This document shows, piece by piece, positions 7,003 through 25,801 of a stretch of 28,845 nt of DNA. A program made the translations under genes and the position numbers. Numbering within the stretch: the first letter of the stretch is position 1; each line of letters opens with the position of its first letter. The notes beneath the pieces are model-generated. The model saw nothing but the letters and a program-made list of their open reading frames with translations, was not told where the DNA came from and did no database searches. The stretch comes from a virus, in the IMG/VR virus record IMGVR_UViG_3300017786_001684, positions 1 to 28,845 of that record; one strand, given 5' to 3'.

Positions 7003-7353
7003 ATGGACTCCGTAGTAACTTTAATTAATGAAGTTGGTTTCCCAATAGCAGCAGCTATAGGTCTTGGTTTATTTATTTGGAAACTTATTAATAAAATTAT
7101 TGACGGCATGGAAACTAAAGTAGATGTACTAGACGAAAAAGTATCAGCACAAATAGCACAAATAGAAGAAAGATTAGGTCAAAAACTAGATTCACAACAC
7201 GGTATATTAGTAGCTCTTATAGATAGGGTACGTTCTGTAGATAACGAGATAATTAGACAAGATACTTTGTTAAAGACTATACTTGGTGTACCGCAACTTA
7301 TGAATACGGATAGAATAGCAAAAGCAGATAGAGACGACCAAAGGAAAGATTAA
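7003..7353 (+). CDS. Holin-like membrane protein with coiled coil
   Basis: 116 residues. One membrane helix at residues ~10-30 (EVGFPIAAAIGLGLFIWKLI) resembles YvrJ/BhlA-type small holin-related proteins. A long charged coiled coil follows (residues ~37-85) and a soluble, charged C-terminus. It lies between the nuclease and the curli-like genes and downstream of the lysozyme, where a holin is expected. Alternatively it is a membrane scaffold. The start was chosen as the first ATG after the nuclease stop; the next gene overlaps its TAA by one base. Confidence 0.75.
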   Translation: MDSVVTLINEVGFPIAAAIGLGLFIWKLINKIIDGMETKVDVLDEKVSAQIAQIEERLGQKLDSQHGILVALIDRVRSVDNEIIRQDTLLKTILGVPQLMNTDRIAKADRDDQRKD

Positions 7354-7549: not shown

Positions 7550-8050
7550 ATGAAAGAAACTGAAAAACAAAAAGAAGAAGCTGAAAAAATTTTAATAACT
7601 AAAATTATGGTAGTTATCGGAATTATGTTATTTGTAGGAATATTTTGTCAAAATCTTTGGTCTGACCAAATAGTACATAAATTTAAATCACCTAGTTTTA
7701 ATGGTATAGGTACATCGTCTCATTACTTAACTATAGAAAACCAAGAGTTTAGTCGTAAACTAACAATTAAAGAAGAAATTAAAGCCTTACAAGATGAAAT
7801 AGAAAGAGAAAAAGAAAACTCCACACTTGCTAGGTTTATGCGTAATCTTGAATCAAGAGTCTATGCTGAATTATCAAGACAACTAGTTAATAACCTCTTT
7901 GGAGAAACACCGCAAAGTTCGGGTACAATAACTTTAGAAGGCAACACCATTGAATATACAAGCGATGGAGTAACATTAACTTTAAAGATAACGGAACAAG
8001 ATGGGACAATTACCTCGATTACAATTCCTATTGGTACTTTTACTTTCTAG
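7550..8050 (+). CDS. csgF: CsgF-like curli secretion accessory protein
   Basis: 166 residues. After a charged N-terminus and a hydrophobic export segment (residues ~16-34), residues 41-66 read QIVHKFKSPSFNG...SSHYLTIENQE. This matches the F-[KR]-[NS]-P-x-F and following part of CsgF that inserts into the CsgG pore. Residues ~94-118 match the CsgF helix, and 126-162 match its C-terminal strands (TIEYTSDGVTLTLKITEQDG). An extra charged helix at residues ~70-93 (KLTIKEEIKALQDEIEREK) is absent from E. coli CsgF. In bacteria CsgF caps the CsgG channel at the cell surface and couples secretion to curlin nucleation. The csgG-like gene overlaps by 50 bases. The export segment could be a cleaved signal or an anchor. 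Confidence 0.85.
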   Translation: MKETEKQKEEAEKILITKIMVVIGIMLFVGIFCQNLWSDQIVHKFKSPSFNGIGTSSHYLTIENQEFSRKLTIKEEIKALQDEIEREKENSTLARFMRNLESRVYAELSRQLVNNLFGETPQSSGTITLEGNTIEYTSDGVTLTLKITEQDGTITSITIPIGTFTF

Positions 8051-8837
8051 TTGTTCTACTTTTGACCAATTTGAAGATACGTACGAACAGAGATATAAAG
8101 CACAAGACGTAGTTTCTATTCAAGAACTACAATCACCGTATTTGCGTGATGTAGCTGTTCCTGAAGTTAGTCCTGTAGTTGCTGTATATCCTGCTGCTTT
8201 TACAGACCAAACAGGACAAAGGAAAAGCAATAGTGAATTTGCACTATTTAGTACAGCTATAACACAACAACCAAATGCATTACTTATACGAGCTTTAAAA
8301 CACGCAGGTAATGGTCAATTTTTTAGAGTAGTTGAACGAGTAGGATTAGATAATTTAACTAAAGAAAGACAGCTTATACGTTCTGCAAGAGAACAAACAG
8401 CTAATGAAGAAGAGAAAAAGAAAGCACTAAGACCATTATTATTTGCTGGTATCTTAATAGAAGGAGCTGTTATATCTTACGAAGCTAATTTAGAATCTGG
8501 AGGTATTGGAGCTAGGTATCTTGGTATTGGTAATAGCATACAATATAGAGAAGATAATATTACTGTAAGTTTACGTATGGTTTCTGTAGCTACTGGTGAG
8601 ATTTTATTAGAAGTATTAAGTCAAAAAACTATATTTAGTTACGGTAAATCAGAAGATGTATTTAGATTTATAGAAGCAGGTACAGAACTAGTAGAAATAG
8701 AATTAGGTAATGCTAGAAACGAATCATCAACTATAGCATTAATGAAAGCGATTGAAGGTGGTGTATTAGAAATAATAAACCAAGGATATGAAAGAAATTT
8801 TTGGATTTTACAAAAAACAGAAAAGGAGGTAGAATGA
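8001..8837 (+). CDS. csgG: CsgG-like curli secretion channel lipoprotein
   Basis: 278 residues, close to E. coli CsgG (277). It has a lipoprotein signal with lipobox LSSC (C18). Family segments occur in order: VYPAAFTDQTGQ (~62-73), FSTAITQQPNALLIRALKHA (83-102), FFRVVERVGLDNLTKERQLI (107-126), ILIEGAVISYEANLESGG (151-168), ARYLGIGNSIQYREDNITVS (171-190) and VATGEILLEVLSQKTI. CsgG oligomers form the outer-membrane pore for curlin export. No frameshift or gap is visible. Its start lies inside csgF, so the whole signal peptide is encoded within the csgF 3' end. The constriction loop (residues 74-83) differs from E. coli: F83 is kept, but the residues matching Y51 and N55 are not. Confidence 0.92.
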   Translation: MGQLPRLQFLLVLLLSSCSTFDQFEDTYEQRYKAQDVVSIQELQSPYLRDVAVPEVSPVVAVYPAAFTDQTGQRKSNSEFALFSTAITQQPNALLIRALKHAGNGQFFRVVERVGLDNLTKERQLIRSAREQTANEEEKKKALRPLLFAGILIEGAVISYEANLESGGIGARYLGIGNSIQYREDNITVSLRMVSVATGEILLEVLSQKTIFSYGKSEDVFRFIEAGTELVEIELGNARNESSTIALMKAIEGGVLEIINQGYERNFWILQKTEKEVE

Positions 8838-9574
8838 TTGAGTTAATCATGAAAAAGTACATACTGTTATTATTGTGTGTTGTTTTATTACCGTTACAAG
8901 CGGCAGATAATGAAATATATGTAGACCAGTCAGGGACTGGAGCTAACATAGATTTAGAACAACTAGGCATATCAAATATTATAGGTGGTTTAAATTCTAC
9001 TGCAGGGTCTTTAACTGCTTTCGATTTAGACGGCACTACTATGACACTTGATATTAATATGATTGGTGCAACTAATAAATTCTTAGGTGATATAAACGCT
9101 GACACTTTTACAGGTTTATATAATTTTACTGGCGGTAGTAATAATTTCACTATACAAGTAGACCCAACTAATACTTATAGCTCAGATAATTCTGACCAAA
9201 ACGTAGCAGTTACAGGCAGTAGTAATACATTTACTTTAAATCAAGGTACTACAGCAATAGCAGCATCTCTTAATCTTGATTGGATTATTCAAGGTTCTAA
9301 TAACACAGTTACTTCTAATATCAATATTGATGGTGCTACAAACTATATGGATATAGATGGCAGTGATAATACAGTAAATTATACAGGTACTGGTGTTAAT
9401 GCTTCAGCAGGTGGATATTTTTGGCTAGACCATACAGGCGGACAAAGAACATTTAATATTCAACAACTGAGTACCCAAGACAATGACTGGCTTAAAATTA
9501 TATCTATTGGCGGTAATGCTTCTAGCACCGTTTGTGTTATCCAAAACGACCAAGGAACAAGCACAAGCTGTTGA
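8834..9574 (+). CDS. Curlin-like secreted repeat protein (candidate amyloid substrate)
   Basis: 246 residues from the ATG at 8834, which overlaps the csgG stop (ATGA) and follows AAGGAGG at 8823-8829. The N-terminus is a Sec signal peptide (KKYILLLLCVVLLPLQA, cut near A24). The mature start, YVDQSGTGANIDLEQLGISN, has the Q-x-G-x-x-x-N ... Q-x-G-x-x-N spacing of curlin repeats. At least six further weak repeats follow with a G-x-x-N turn and alternating beta residues (GATNKF, GGSNNFTI, GSSNTFTL, GSNNTVTS, GATNYMDI, GSDNTVNY). Two Cys lie near the end (CVIQNDQGTSTSC). It has few charged residues and is rich in Asn/Thr/Gly/Ser. It is the probable cargo of the adjacent CsgG/CsgF pair; identity as curlin is inferred. 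Confidence 0.72.
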   Translation: MIELIMKKYILLLLCVVLLPLQAADNEIYVDQSGTGANIDLEQLGISNIIGGLNSTAGSLTAFDLDGTTMTLDINMIGATNKFLGDINADTFTGLYNFTGGSNNFTIQVDPTNTYSSDNSDQNVAVTGSSNTFTLNQGTTAIAASLNLDWIIQGSNNTVTSNINIDGATNYMDIDGSDNTVNYTGTGVNASAGGYFWLDHTGGQRTFNIQQLSTQDNDWLKIISIGGNASSTVCVIQNDQGTSTSC

Positions 9575-10601
9575 TATAGGCGATATATCTGAACTAAACG
9601 GTTCAGCACAAATAGTAAGAGATAAACCTTACGATGCTAATTTACAATTTGCTATCCAAAGCAATGACGAAGCTATTACTACTAATGGTAGAATGGCTAT
9701 CACTTTTTTAGATGATTCTACAGTAAAACTTACCGAACATTCACAACTTCTTATAGACGAATATATTTACGACCCCGACCCTAGTAAAGCTAAAATGGCA
9801 CTTACGTTTGGGTTAGGAACAGCTAGGTTTATTACAGGCAACTTAAATAAAATAGATAAACAAAATATATCTCTTAAAACTCCGACAGCCAACATTGCCA
9901 TTCGTGGCACAGATTTCACAGCGACGGTTGATGAATTAGGACGTTCACTTATTATTTTACTCCCCGACCCTTTTGGTTTATCTAGCGGAGAAATAGAAGT
10001 AGTTACTGCTATGGGAACTGTTTTATTAAATAAACCATATGAAGCAACTACGGTAAGCGTGTTTGAGTCAGCACCAACTAAACCCGTTATTTTAGATTTA
10101 ACTTTAGATGTAATAGATAATATGTTGATTGTTACACCTCCTAAAGAAGAAGCCGTTATAGAAGAAGAGGCTACAAGTACAAAAACAGAAAATGTTTTAG
10201 ATTTTAATGATTTAGATATAGATTACTTAGCAGAAGATTATTTAAAAGAAGATAGTTTAGGATTTACTGAACTCGATATAAATTATCTTGATGTAAATTA
10301 TTTAGAAGATTTGTTAAATGTACTAGATGCACTAGCCGTAGCTGAGGACGAAGACCAATTAGCACAAGCTACTAGTACACAAATATCAGGAACATCTTTA
10401 GGTAAAGACCCTGAAACACAAATAACAGCTTTAATTACAGGTAACGTAGTTAGTTTACGAAGACAAGTAAACGAAAGCGTTAGGGTTGATTTAGACGGTA
10501 GTAATGCTTATACAGTAATTTTGATACAAGACGGTGTTTCTAATATAATTAAAATTAACGGAGGAAGTGATAGTGTAATTACAATTACACAAAGTGATTA
10601 A
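9483..10601 (+). CDS. Exported FecR-domain protein with curlin-like C-terminal repeat
   Basis: 372 residues. Signal peptide at residues 1-20 (KLYLLAVMLLAPFVLS), which fixes the start even though it lies 92 bases inside the curlin-like gene. Residues ~34-160 form a FecR domain, with DISELNGSAQIVRD, AITTNGRMAITFLDDSTVKL and ANIAIRGTDFTATVDELG. Residues ~235-295 are very acidic with DIDYLAEDYL/DINYLDVNYLEDLL repeats. Residues 335-372 (DGSNAYTVILIQDGVSNIIK onward) carry the Q-x-G-x-x-N and I-x-I-x-Q pattern of a curlin repeat. FecR domains are periplasmic signal or scaffold modules, often next to CHASE2 cyclases. Without the TonB receptor or sigma factor, a role in transport regulation is unlikely. 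It may anchor or nucleate the fibre, or report on it to the cyclase. Confidence 0.82.
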   Translation: MTGLKLYLLAVMLLAPFVLSKTTKEQAQAVDIGDISELNGSAQIVRDKPYDANLQFAIQSNDEAITTNGRMAITFLDDSTVKLTEHSQLLIDEYIYDPDPSKAKMALTFGLGTARFITGNLNKIDKQNISLKTPTANIAIRGTDFTATVDELGRSLIILLPDPFGLSSGEIEVVTAMGTVLLNKPYEATTVSVFESAPTKPVILDLTLDVIDNMLIVTPPKEEAVIEEEATSTKTENVLDFNDLDIDYLAEDYLKEDSLGFTELDINYLDVNYLEDLLNVLDALAVAEDEDQLAQATSTQISGTSLGKDPETQITALITGNVVSLRRQVNESVRVDLDGSNAYTVILIQDGVSNIIKINGGSDSVITITQSD

Positions 10602-12334
10602 TGAAAAAATTTATATTTATATTACTGCCTTTATTAGTATTACCTTTATTATTTCAAACCACGCCGACAGAAATAATAAAACTAAAAACTTTTGATAAAT
10701 TAATAAAGAAACAAGAACCTAGTGGTAATTTTGTTATATTAAATATAACAGAAGATGATGTAGAACGTGAAGGCGGTTATCCTTTACCTAGAAAAAGATT
10801 AGCAGATATACAAATGGAGATTCTTGGCAAAGGAGCTCTTGGAGTTGGTTGGGTTATATCATTTCCACAAGCAGACAGACTTATGGGGGACGAAGATTTT
10901 TCTAGGTCTTTAGGTTATGCTCCTAGTGTAATAGCTACGTTCGAAGACGGTAATAAAAATTATCCTAAAACAACAGGTACCGTTATTAAAGGTCCCGATG
11001 TTGGTGGTTTATTTTCTACAGGAGTTAAACAAAATTTTTATCTTTACGATGATATAGCACAAGGAGTTGCTATAGCCCCAGTTGAAGTAGACCAACTTGT
11101 TAGGCGTATTCCTCTATTATTAAAAACGCCTGACGGTTGGGCTCCTTCTTTCGGAGTTCATGTTTTAAAAAATTTAACAAATGCTCGTACGTATATTATT
11201 ACTACTAACGATAACGGCGTACAAGAAATAGCTGTTAGAGGTATATCGCCAGTAAAAACAGATAGTCTTGGTCGTAAGTGGATTAGTTGGGTAGAAACAG
11301 AAGAAACAAACTTACAAGAAATGGATGTAAACGGCAGGTTTGTATTTGTTGGAGTTACGGCTAATGGTGTGATGCCGCAAATCGCTACACCTGTTGGATT
11401 ACTTGAACCACATAAAATTCAAGCAGCATTAGCAGAATCAATACTTATACAAAATAGTCCTTATATTCCTGATTACGCTTTAGCCTTAGAACTTTTAATA
11501 TTTATAACGTCTGTAGGGCTTATCTGGGCGTTTATAAGCTATTTAGGAATAACTTGGGGAATAAGTCTAGGATTAATAACTATAGCCTTAACGGGCTTAT
11601 ACGGGGTTTATACGATAGGTACAGGAGTTTTAATAGATGTAACTTGGTCTTTAATCTCTCAGTTTATTACAGGTAGTGTAGCTTTTTATCTAAGGTTTAG
11701 AGAACAATGGAGATTAAGAGAACAAGTAAAGAAACAGTTTGAACATTATTTAGACCCTAGACAAGTTAAACGTTTACAAAAAGACCCTGATTTATTAAAA
11801 CTAGGTGGAGAAAAAAGACGTTGTACTTTTTTATTTACAGACGTAAGAGGTTTTACTGCTTTATCAGAAACGTTACCTCCAGAAGAAGTAACAACTATAA
11901 TGAATAAAGCATTAACAATACAATCAGATACAGTTAAAAAGTATGACGGTATGGTAGATAAATATATTGGTGATGCAATGATGGCAATATTTAACGCACC
12001 TATGGATTTACAACATCATGAACAATTAGCCGTAGAATGTGCTAAAGAAATACAACAAACTATAATAGATGCAGAAATAGGAGTTGAGATTGGTGTAGGC
12101 GTAAATACAGGTGAAGCTGTTATTGGTAATATGGGAAGCGATACAAGGTTTGATTATAGTGCTATAGGGGACGCAGTAAATACAGCCGCTAGGTTAGAAT
12201 CAGCTACTAAAGAAGCGGGTGTAAATATCCTTATAGGCGAAGAAACAGAAAAATATTGTGGTATTCCTTTAAAACAATTAAAACCAATAAAAGTAAAAGG
12301 TAAAGAAAAAGCTTTAAAAATATATACTTTTTGA
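10601..12334 (+). CDS. CHASE2-domain membrane adenylate cyclase (class III)
   Basis: 577 residues. The order is: N-terminal membrane helix (residues 4-19), periplasmic CHASE2 sensor (~25-290), three membrane helices (~295-312, 320-341, 344-365), a helical linker, and a class III nucleotidyl cyclase domain (~400-577). Catalytic residues look complete: metal ligands D414 (FTDVRGF) and D458 (KYIGD), adenine-selecting K454 and D518 (RFDYS), and transition-state N527 and R531 (DAVNTAARLES). K plus D at the selecting positions favours ATP, so cAMP is the expected product. The gene starts in the fecR stop (TAATG). Such cyclases are common in bacteria but unexpected in a phage. The stimulus sensed by CHASE2 is unknown; the FecR or curlin protein is a candidate. 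Confidence 0.93.
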   Translation: MKKFIFILLPLLVLPLLFQTTPTEIIKLKTFDKLIKKQEPSGNFVILNITEDDVEREGGYPLPRKRLADIQMEILGKGALGVGWVISFPQADRLMGDEDFSRSLGYAPSVIATFEDGNKNYPKTTGTVIKGPDVGGLFSTGVKQNFYLYDDIAQGVAIAPVEVDQLVRRIPLLLKTPDGWAPSFGVHVLKNLTNARTYIITTNDNGVQEIAVRGISPVKTDSLGRKWISWVETEETNLQEMDVNGRFVFVGVTANGVMPQIATPVGLLEPHKIQAALAESILIQNSPYIPDYALALELLIFITSVGLIWAFISYLGITWGISLGLITIALTGLYGVYTIGTGVLIDVTWSLISQFITGSVAFYLRFREQWRLREQVKKQFEHYLDPRQVKRLQKDPDLLKLGGEKRRCTFLFTDVRGFTALSETLPPEEVTTIMNKALTIQSDTVKKYDGMVDKYIGDAMMAIFNAPMDLQHHEQLAVECAKEIQQTIIDAEIGVEIGVGVNTGEAVIGNMGSDTRFDYSAIGDAVNTAARLESATKEAGVNILIGEETEKYCGIPLKQLKPIKVKGKEKALKIYTF

Positions 12335-24128: not shown

Positions 24129-24455
24129 GTGACAGTATATGTCGTACAAGAAGTTCCAGGACGAAACATCGCCTCTGCTAGACAGTTTGGTGATTTTGAA
24201 GTTCTGTTGCCTTCTAACACACAAATTATGTTAAGTGCGTCTCCTTCAGTTCGTAGAATGAAAAGTCTTTTACAAGACTACAAAGAAGGCGATTACTTAT
24301 TATTAATAGGCGACCCTGCCGCCATAGGCGTAGCGTGTTCTATCGCTGCATTTTATAATCGAGGTAGATATAGTATATTAAAGTGGGATAGGCAGGAAGG
24401 TTTATACTATCCCGTTGATATCGATTTACACCAGAAAGGAGAAATAGATGAATGA
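24129..24455 (+). CDS. Conserved early phage protein, 108 residues
   Basis: GTG start with AAAGGAGA six bases upstream, first gene of the rightward early block. The sequence (VYVVQEVPGRNIASARQFGD, then LLLIGDPAAIGVACSIAAFY and RYSILKWDRQEGLYYPVDID) matches a pattern I recognise as common in marine podovirus-like phages, always first in the replication region, with no known role. It is an alpha/beta protein without a catalytic motif that I can see. Being the leading gene, it may be made early and act on the host, but this is inference. Overlaps the next gene by eight bases. Confidence 0.8.
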   Translation: MTVYVVQEVPGRNIASARQFGDFEVLLPSNTQIMLSASPSVRRMKSLLQDYKEGDYLLLIGDPAAIGVACSIAAFYNRGRYSILKWDRQEGLYYPVDIDLHQKGEIDE

Positions 24456-25023
24456 GAAACCAACTTTTGAAGACTTAGTCGGAACTTCAGACGCTCAGCA
24501 ATGGGATAATGATGTTTCTGATGGAGAGCTTTCAATAGTTTCTAGTTTAGCTAATAAACAACTTCAACTAGCTACAGAAGTAGCAGAGCTAGAAGCTAAT
24601 TTAAAAGCTAAAAAAGAAGAACTTCGTTTGACTTCGGAGCAAGAGTTACCTGATGCTATGCAAGCGGCAGGACTTACTCAAATAAAACTTAATAGTGGAG
24701 AAAATATTTCTATTAATGAGTTTTATAACGCTCACATATCGAAAGCAAACCAAGAAAAAGCGTATGAGTGGTTAACGCAAAACGGTCATGAAGGTCTTAT
24801 AAAGAACGAGGTTCTTTTAAAGTTCGGACGTGAAGAAAGTTTAGTCGTTGATGAAACAGTTTCAGCTTTGCAAGCAAGAGGCTTATCACCGCAAGTACGT
24901 CAGAGTGTTCACCCTAGTACATTAAAAGCTTTTGTAAAAGAGCAGTTTACTAGTGGGAACGATATACCAACCGAGCCTTTTGGTATCTACATAGGTACTA
25001 AAGCTATTATTAAAAAGGATTAA
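24448..25023 (+). CDS. Conserved early phage protein with coiled coil, 191 residues
   Basis: AGAAAGGAGA before the ATG. Residues ~30-65 are a charged coiled coil (LANKQLQLATEVAELEANLK). The C-terminal two-thirds carry LPDAMQAAGLTQIKLNSGEN, KAYEWLTQNGHEGLIKNEVL and VHPSTLKAFVKEQ, a conserved pattern of marine phage replication regions with no established function. Position before two replication-type genes suggests DNA metabolism, perhaps binding of DNA or of the polymerase. No motif proves this. Confidence 0.8.
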   Translation: MNEKPTFEDLVGTSDAQQWDNDVSDGELSIVSSLANKQLQLATEVAELEANLKAKKEELRLTSEQELPDAMQAAGLTQIKLNSGENISINEFYNAHISKANQEKAYEWLTQNGHEGLIKNEVLLKFGREESLVVDETVSALQARGLSPQVRQSVHPSTLKAFVKEQFTSGNDIPTEPFGIYIGTKAIIKKD

Positions 25024-25027
25024 TATT

Positions 25028-25801
25028 ATGGCAGAAAATAAAAATGAAGTAGCTGAAGCTACATCTACGGCAATAAGCACGTTTGACGACAGCTTATTGT
25101 CAGGCGGTACTGGGTTAGAAGACACTACTACAGAGGATTTTGCGATTCCTTTTATTAGAGTTTTACAACCTATGTCACCACAAGTGCAAAAGCAAAACGG
25201 AAGTTATGTAGAAGGTGCTAGTGCAGGAGATTTGTACAACACTGTAACTGGTGAAGCTTATGACGGAGAGAAAGGTATTACTATAGTTCCATGTGCTTAT
25301 AACAAAAAGTATATTGAATGGATACCTAGAGAAAAAGGTGGTGGTTTAGTAAACGCTAACCACGACATTTCTATACTTTCTAAATGTACTAGAGACCCAG
25401 AAACTAGAAGATACTACACTCCTGAAGGTAACGAGATAGTAGAGACTGCTCAGTTTTTTATATTAGTAGTTAAAGAAGGTAACGCACAACAAGCAGTTCT
25501 TGCATTTACTTCTACTCAATTAGGGGTAGCTAGGAAATGGTTAACGATGCTTAGAATGGCTAGAGTTCAAAACTCTAAAGGAGAGTCTGTTGAAGCTCCT
25601 ATGTTCGCTTATAGTTATAAATTAACTACAACTACCCAATCTAACGATAAAGGCAGTTGGAACGCTTATAGCATAAACCAAGACAGTGCTACTGATATGT
25701 CTATAGCTATGGTTGCTAAAGACTTTATGGGTGCGGCAAGGTCTGGTGATGTTGATGTAAAACAAGAGCAGCAAAACGAAGTTGTTAACGATAGTATCTA
25801 A
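25028..25801 (+). CDS. Conserved phage replication-region protein, possible ssDNA-binding, 257 residues
   Basis: Acidic N-terminus, then a conserved core (EDFAIPFIRVLQPMSPQVQK, AGDLYNTVTGEAYDGEKGIT, KKYIEWIPREKGGG), and FTSTQLGVARKWLTMLRMAR. The C-terminal tail is acidic with Gln/Glu (DVDVKQEQQNEVVND), as in phage ssDNA-binding proteins that use an acidic tail to bind partners. It lies directly before the primase gene. ssDNA-binding is a reasonable guess from position, tail and length, but no OB-fold signature can be proved here. Confidence 0.75.
   Translation: MAENKNEVAEATSTAISTFDDSLLSGGTGLEDTTTEDFAIPFIRVLQPMSPQVQKQNGSYVEGASAGDLYNTVTGEAYDGEKGITIVPCAYNKKYIEWIPREKGGGLVNANHDISILSKCTRDPETRRYYTPEGNEIVETAQFFILVVKEGNAQQAVLAFTSTQLGVARKWLTMLRMARVQNSKGESVEAPMFAYSYKLTTTTQSNDKGSWNAYSINQDSATDMSIAMVAKDFMGAARSGDVDVKQEQQNEVVNDSI

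Follow-up and report, generated by a model that had tools for sequence, protein, structure and literature searches.

The last gene of the curli (type VIII) secretion cluster of a marine phage encodes a membrane-bound cyclase with a CHASE2 sensor domain. It lies in the window, our term for the whole stretch of DNA analysed here (28,845 nucleotides of the IMG/VR virus record IMGVR_UViG_3300017786_001684). The reading that we prefer, to which we give about an even chance, is that this protein is a class IIIb adenylate cyclase whose CHASE2 input would report the state of secretion, and that its cAMP would go out to no recognised reader. Five parts of this picture can be read from sequence: the architecture, an intact conserved site, equal selection on sensor and output, a constant order of genes, and a relationship to alphaproteobacterial CHASE2 cyclases that are likewise secretion-linked. 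Coordinates of the genes and of the catalytic codons are collected in the table.

Table. Genes of the curli cluster and catalytic codons of its cyclase (window positions)
Feature	Position	Strand	Basis or remark
Small membrane/coiled-coil protein, 116 aa, weakly holin-like	7003..7353	+	Kept upstream of csgF in relatives; no kinase domain
CsgF	7550..8050	+	Pfam CsgF 9.2e-15
CsgG outer-membrane secretion pore, lipobox LLSSC	8001..8837	+	Pfam CsgG 7.5e-46
Curlin-like fibre subunit	8834..9574	+	ATG 8834 preferred over a longer TTG-started ORF
FecR-domain protein, 372 aa, N-terminal signal sequence, C-terminal beta-rich tail	9483..10601	+	Pfam FecR 9.3e-10
CHASE2 - three transmembrane helices - class IIIb adenylate cyclase, 577 aa	10601..12334	+	Pfam, predicted model, fold match
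D414 codon, first metal-binding Asp (FTDVRGFT)	11840..11842	+	Invariant, 85/85
K454 to D458 codons (KYIGD), adenine-recognising Lys and second metal Asp	11960..11974	+	
S520 codon, base-selecting position (Ser/Thr, class IIIb)	12158..12160	+	Alignment to 3r5g, 5mbg
N527 to R531 codons, transition-state Asn and Arg	12179..12193	+	

The cyclase ORF is intact, and its ATG sits at the stop of the FecR gene, directly behind it. Pfam places CHASE2 (PF05226, E 9.6e-22) at residues 12-301 and Guanylate_cyc (PF00211, E 1.3e-20) at residues 406-571, both far over the cut-off; an N-terminal membrane anchor precedes CHASE2, and three membrane helices connect it to the class III cyclase domain. As judged from Pfam, hydrophobic segments and a predicted model, this is the layout of a CHASE2 receptor, i.e. 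membrane segment, CHASE2, three helices and a predicted cytoplasmic output. The model (mean pLDDT 83.8) has helices at residues 2-18, 293-340 and 348-383 and a mixed CHASE2 domain, and comparison with the PDB matches its cyclase fold to CyaB (3r5g), CyaC (1wc1) and Cya2 (2w01). The CHASE2 domain is predicted to face the periplasm. An earlier note on this DNA had proposed a class III cyclase with CHASE2 and intact catalytic residues, its sensor turned towards the periplasm, where the FecR product would be. Pfam, residue positions and fold agree with the former proposal; the predicted topology, the signal sequence of FecR and the position of its gene immediately upstream agree with the latter.

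All six residues listed in that note (D414, K454, D458, D518, N527 and R531) are at the positions named, and they include the class III catalytic set of two metal-binding Asp (D414 and D458), K454, N527 and R531. D414, D458 and R531 do not vary among 85 phage homologues, while K454 is found in 84 (the remaining one is undetermined) and N527 also in 84. What did not hold was the role of D518 as the base-selecting residue: in alignments to CyaB of P. aeruginosa (3r5g) and a photoactivated adenylyl cyclase (5mbg), it is S520 that falls on the Thr of both proteins, and D518 is a conserved neighbour. Position 520 is Thr in 43 of the phage homologues, Ser in 41 and Asp in one. Pairing of Lys with Thr or Ser is the signature of the ATP-using class IIIb, so the base-selecting pair K454 and S520 marks the window protein as a class IIIb adenylate cyclase, which should make cAMP from ATP. 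The exception at both 520 and 527 is the cyclase of the OM43 phage Melnitz (L083:7917-9968), where Asp occupies the base-selecting position and Ser replaces the catalytic Asn (SYDVLGDSVSTAARIES); this enzyme may therefore differ in activity.

Median pairwise dN/dS among the phage homologues is 0.18 for CHASE2, 0.184 for the cyclase domain and 0.35 for the membrane helices, approximate values from simple Nei-Gojobori counts with a median dS near 1; none of the copies of the gene has an internal stop. Purifying selection is thus equal on CHASE2 and cyclase, and both sensor and output are therefore maintained. The distances of the two domains are nearly uncorrelated across the phage loci (Spearman 0.18 and 0.04), which suggests that the gene has recombined internally, or that the sampling has an influence.

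The window holds csgF, csgG, curlin, FecR and cyclase genes in the order of a published phage module, with the cyclase last, and the same order is seen in HTVC008M and Melnitz and in those IMG/VR relatives that reach far enough. Where loci were selected by FecR and had enough downstream sequence, the cyclase was the next gene in 61 of 61; this set and the one selected by cyclase are each the best 80 among the matches listed, and describe close relatives. The curlin-like gene, with AGGAGG just 5' of its ATG, is homologous to the curlin genes of phages HTVC008M and Melnitz, and Pfam detects no curlin repeat in the window protein itself. With its putative start, the FecR reading frame begins 92 bases before the curlin gene ends (9483-9574). 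Its predicted model is poor (mean pLDDT 41, the tail alone near 70-78). The tail is conserved in the phage homologues and holds a curlin-like QDGVSN; the general form QxGxx(N/D) occurs in the FecR tail of 59 of 74 homologues, though so short a motif would arise in about 7% of single sequences by chance (a rough estimate) and is a hint only. It weakly suggests that FecR belongs with the fibre. Pfam matches to CsgE and CsgD of the canonical curli operon were not found among the genes scanned in the window, which is a fragment. A histidine kinase has been reported before csgF (PMC9599517), and none is found there in the window: only small proteins of 61 and 116 aa precede csgF, both lacking a kinase domain, and in seven relatives the same region has only small ORFs of about 50-206 aa. 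The published annotation may need checking.

Does FecR then speak to CHASE2? The earlier note had suggested that export of the fibre components could feed back on cAMP. Tight linkage of the two genes, among the best 80 loci listed, favours such feedback, but specific co-variation does not: FecR distances track those of curlin (Spearman 0.71 and 0.63) and also CsgF/CsgG, against 0.16 and 0.26 for CHASE2, and the histories of CHASE2 and cyclase differ from these. Over phage loci picked by similarity, a choice that restricts the range and weakens correlations, the distances give no sign that FecR co-varies specifically with CHASE2. The same numbers, and the curlin-like tail, lend themselves to a different account, in which FecR is part of the fibre system and the cyclase is secretion-linked by ancestry, with CHASE2 sensing envelope stress or an outside ligand, or with the class IIIb domain responding to bicarbonate. 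We regard this account as possible, if on balance somewhat unlikely: adjacency of FecR and cyclase is perfect in the sampled loci, and the restricted range tempers the correlations on which it would lean.

By its helicase, which is 57.6% identical to that of 023Pt_psg01, 56.5% to DSL-LC04, 51.8% to HTVC027P and 46.9% to HTVC023P, the window most probably represents part of the genome of an HTVC023P-type podovirus. Three genes at 24129-25801 match the Pam3 gp32, gp33 and gp34-like families, linking the replication region to Pseudanabaena phage Pam3. Relatives of the cyclase are encoded in at least 591 IMG/VR stretches in our scan, which contradicts the earlier note's view that phage membrane sensor cyclases are rare, and the isolates HTVC008M and Melnitz carry the cyclase, already annotated as such.

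SAR11 is the likely host family, and its genomes were searched for a reader of cAMP. The SAR11-like genome G212 (a single contig of 1.2 Mb with two SAM-V riboswitches) was picked by an Rfam scan, the class-wide SAM-V scan serving only this choice. G212 and several members of its family carry what we take to be the site of the 16S probe SAR11-732R, which was absent from seven genomes tested outside the family (from the wider class or other loci); family members lacking a match may have no assembled 16S gene. Among the 147 genomes of this family, some of them incomplete, nine have a Pfam-detectable cNMP-binding domain. Two of the nine proteins are FNR-type with a Cys cluster (L179, L180), and the others are mostly large; one of 870 aa (L181) is acyltransferase/lipase-like by Pfam, and three more have the same length. 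A standalone domain in G309 contains GEMG...RMATA, which by visual inspection of the translation is a plausible cAMP cassette; the cassette pattern was not found in the longest frames of the cNMP loci, a search that did not take in the short G309 frame. Judged by these motifs, a cAMP-competent receptor would be clearly plausible in at most one of the 147 genomes. EAL domains were found in none of them. Response regulators, as a positive control, were found in 143, so these absences do not come simply from poor assemblies. Universal stress proteins were considered as alternative cAMP binders and set aside, being present in only 22 of the 147.

Nor does a Pfam-detectable cNMP-binding domain occur in any of 29 phage records, including the complete genomes of HTVC008M and Melnitz, which speaks against a phage-encoded cNMP receptor within that set. 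Cyclase domains were detected in three of the 147 SAR11-like genomes, two of them with CsgG on the same contig and clearly phage-derived: the cluster genes are 64-80% identical to those of the window in one (L177, G253:C1) and 32-56% in the other (L176, G290:C11). These csg-FecR-cyclase contigs may reflect a host link or a binning artefact. A cAMP-CRP circuit calls for a cNMP receptor in phage or host, and the searches give none in the phages and at most one plausible candidate in the SAR11-like genomes. The earlier note had held a host with no cAMP-binding protein to count against its proposal, and that is largely what the 147 genomes look like, provided that the window phage infects this family; HTVC023P-type phages may infect other hosts.

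In its simple form, that proposal has FecR-dependent CHASE2 signalling raise cAMP, which a CRP-type receptor of the host would read. We consider this improbable in spite of the adjacent FecR and cyclase genes, the FecR/CHASE2 pairs that exist in bacteria and the circuit from CHASE2 cyclase to Clr in S. meliloti, for the cNMP-binding domain is as scarce as described, FecR and CHASE2 show no specific co-variation, and the window has three CRP-like sites where 10.95 are expected, i.e. no excess. We likewise doubt strongly that the product matters without a classical receptor, with cAMP or the use of ATP perturbing nucleotide or defence signalling of the host, or with cAMP exported: a strongly conserved catalytic site side by side with so few receptors would fit, but a sensory cyclase makes a poor sink for ATP, no target is known, and the equally strong conservation of CHASE2 and cyclase points towards signalling under regulation.

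In a tree of cyclase domains, the phage cyclases form one group (SH-aLRT 92) that adjoins alphaproteobacterial CHASE2 cyclases (80); the tree is a quick maximum-likelihood one with long branches, and its deeper order is uncertain. These alphaproteobacterial proteins are the nearest cellular group in this tree, the kind of phylogeny by which the earlier note had proposed to look for the donor. A gene for a cNMP-EAL protein lies beside them in all nine downstream neighbourhoods checked, and genes of ABC plus HlyD-type (type I) secretion precede them, four by Pfam and further HlyD-type neighbours recognised by 56-98% identity to the first one. A cyclase facing a cNMP-EAL gene, behind type I secretion genes, suggests a cAMP-to-c-di-GMP switch tied to secretion. 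Other relatives adjoin FecR genes (L110, L117) or FlgT/CsgG-like genes (L087, L089), so that linkage of the cyclase to secretion or surface systems appears to recur in this small sample picked by similarity.

Under the reading that we prefer, that of a secretion-reporting cyclase, CHASE2 would report the state of secretion or fibre assembly during infection, by way of FecR, of unsecreted subunits or of the pore CsgG, and its input would adjust cAMP in the infected cell. The protein-responsive CHASE2 cyclases of S. meliloti and the Burkholderia operon of FecR and CHASE2 kinase, both described below, serve as precedents. The reader of cAMP in the related cellular clusters is probably the adjacent cNMP-EAL protein, and the phage would have retained the cyclase without it. 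Since cyclic-nucleotide-binding proteins are almost absent from the likely SAR11 hosts, and EAL domains were not found in them at all, the cAMP would have to act through an unrecognised target or by some other route. A bolder extension, which we offer tentatively and rate as unlikely, is that pelagiphages bring regulated cAMP signalling into SAR11 cells possessing neither their own cyclase nor a classical receptor; this would imply a new receptor type, possibly coupling fibre export to the infection programme. SAR11 are among the most abundant bacteria of the ocean, and their phages are correspondingly common. The sensory cyclase, kept intact under selection in many of these phages, implies that they equip the host with second-messenger signalling that it lacks. 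With no receptor in the phages searched and almost none in the host family, a catalogued auxiliary gene becomes a concrete question: what reads the cAMP?

The closest known system is the pelagiphage type VIII secretion module. A 2022 study (PMC9599517) described CsgF, CsgG, CsgA/B, FecR and adenylate cyclase in HTVC023P-type podoviruses and pelagimyophages, with the cyclase present in some modules and absent in others, and reported alphaproteobacterial ancestry and ocean-wide occurrence; the csgFG part is described for pelagimyophages and for Melnitz (PMC7029224, PMC9004378). Cluster and cyclase were therefore already published, and the finding of the cyclase as such is not new. The main text of PMC9599517 contains neither 'CHASE' nor 'CRP'; what is added here is that the cyclase belongs to class IIIb, that its CHASE2 domain is under selection, that its cellular relatives are secretion-linked and have a cNMP-EAL partner, and that a cAMP receptor seems to be missing from the phages and from nearly the whole host family. 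Genes, order and phage type are shared between window and module. The window cyclase is 35% identical to that of HTVC008M and 31.6% to that of Melnitz, and in both of these phages FecR and cyclase are separated by a second curlin gene, which the window lacks. The alphaproteobacterial relatives (L084, L086, L088, L090, L094, L097, L099, L100 and L106) have CHASE2 and cyclase at about 27-31% full-length identity and are secretion-linked like the window cluster, but they are cellular, go with type I rather than type VIII secretion, and have kept the adjacent gene for a cNMP-binding EAL protein. In Sinorhizobium meliloti, the CHASE2 cyclases CyaD1, CyaD2 and CyaK respond to a protein signal by way of the outer-membrane protein NsrA (PMC13001267), a protein-responsive cAMP output read by the CRP-type regulator Clr, whereas no such reader was found for the window phage. 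The Burkholderia BiofilmReg operon (PMC5192318) has the gene of a FecR/LysM protein directly before that of a CHASE2 histidine kinase; it shares with the window the pair of exported FecR-domain protein and CHASE2 sensor, in a biofilm context, and differs in having a histidine kinase as its output in place of a cyclase.
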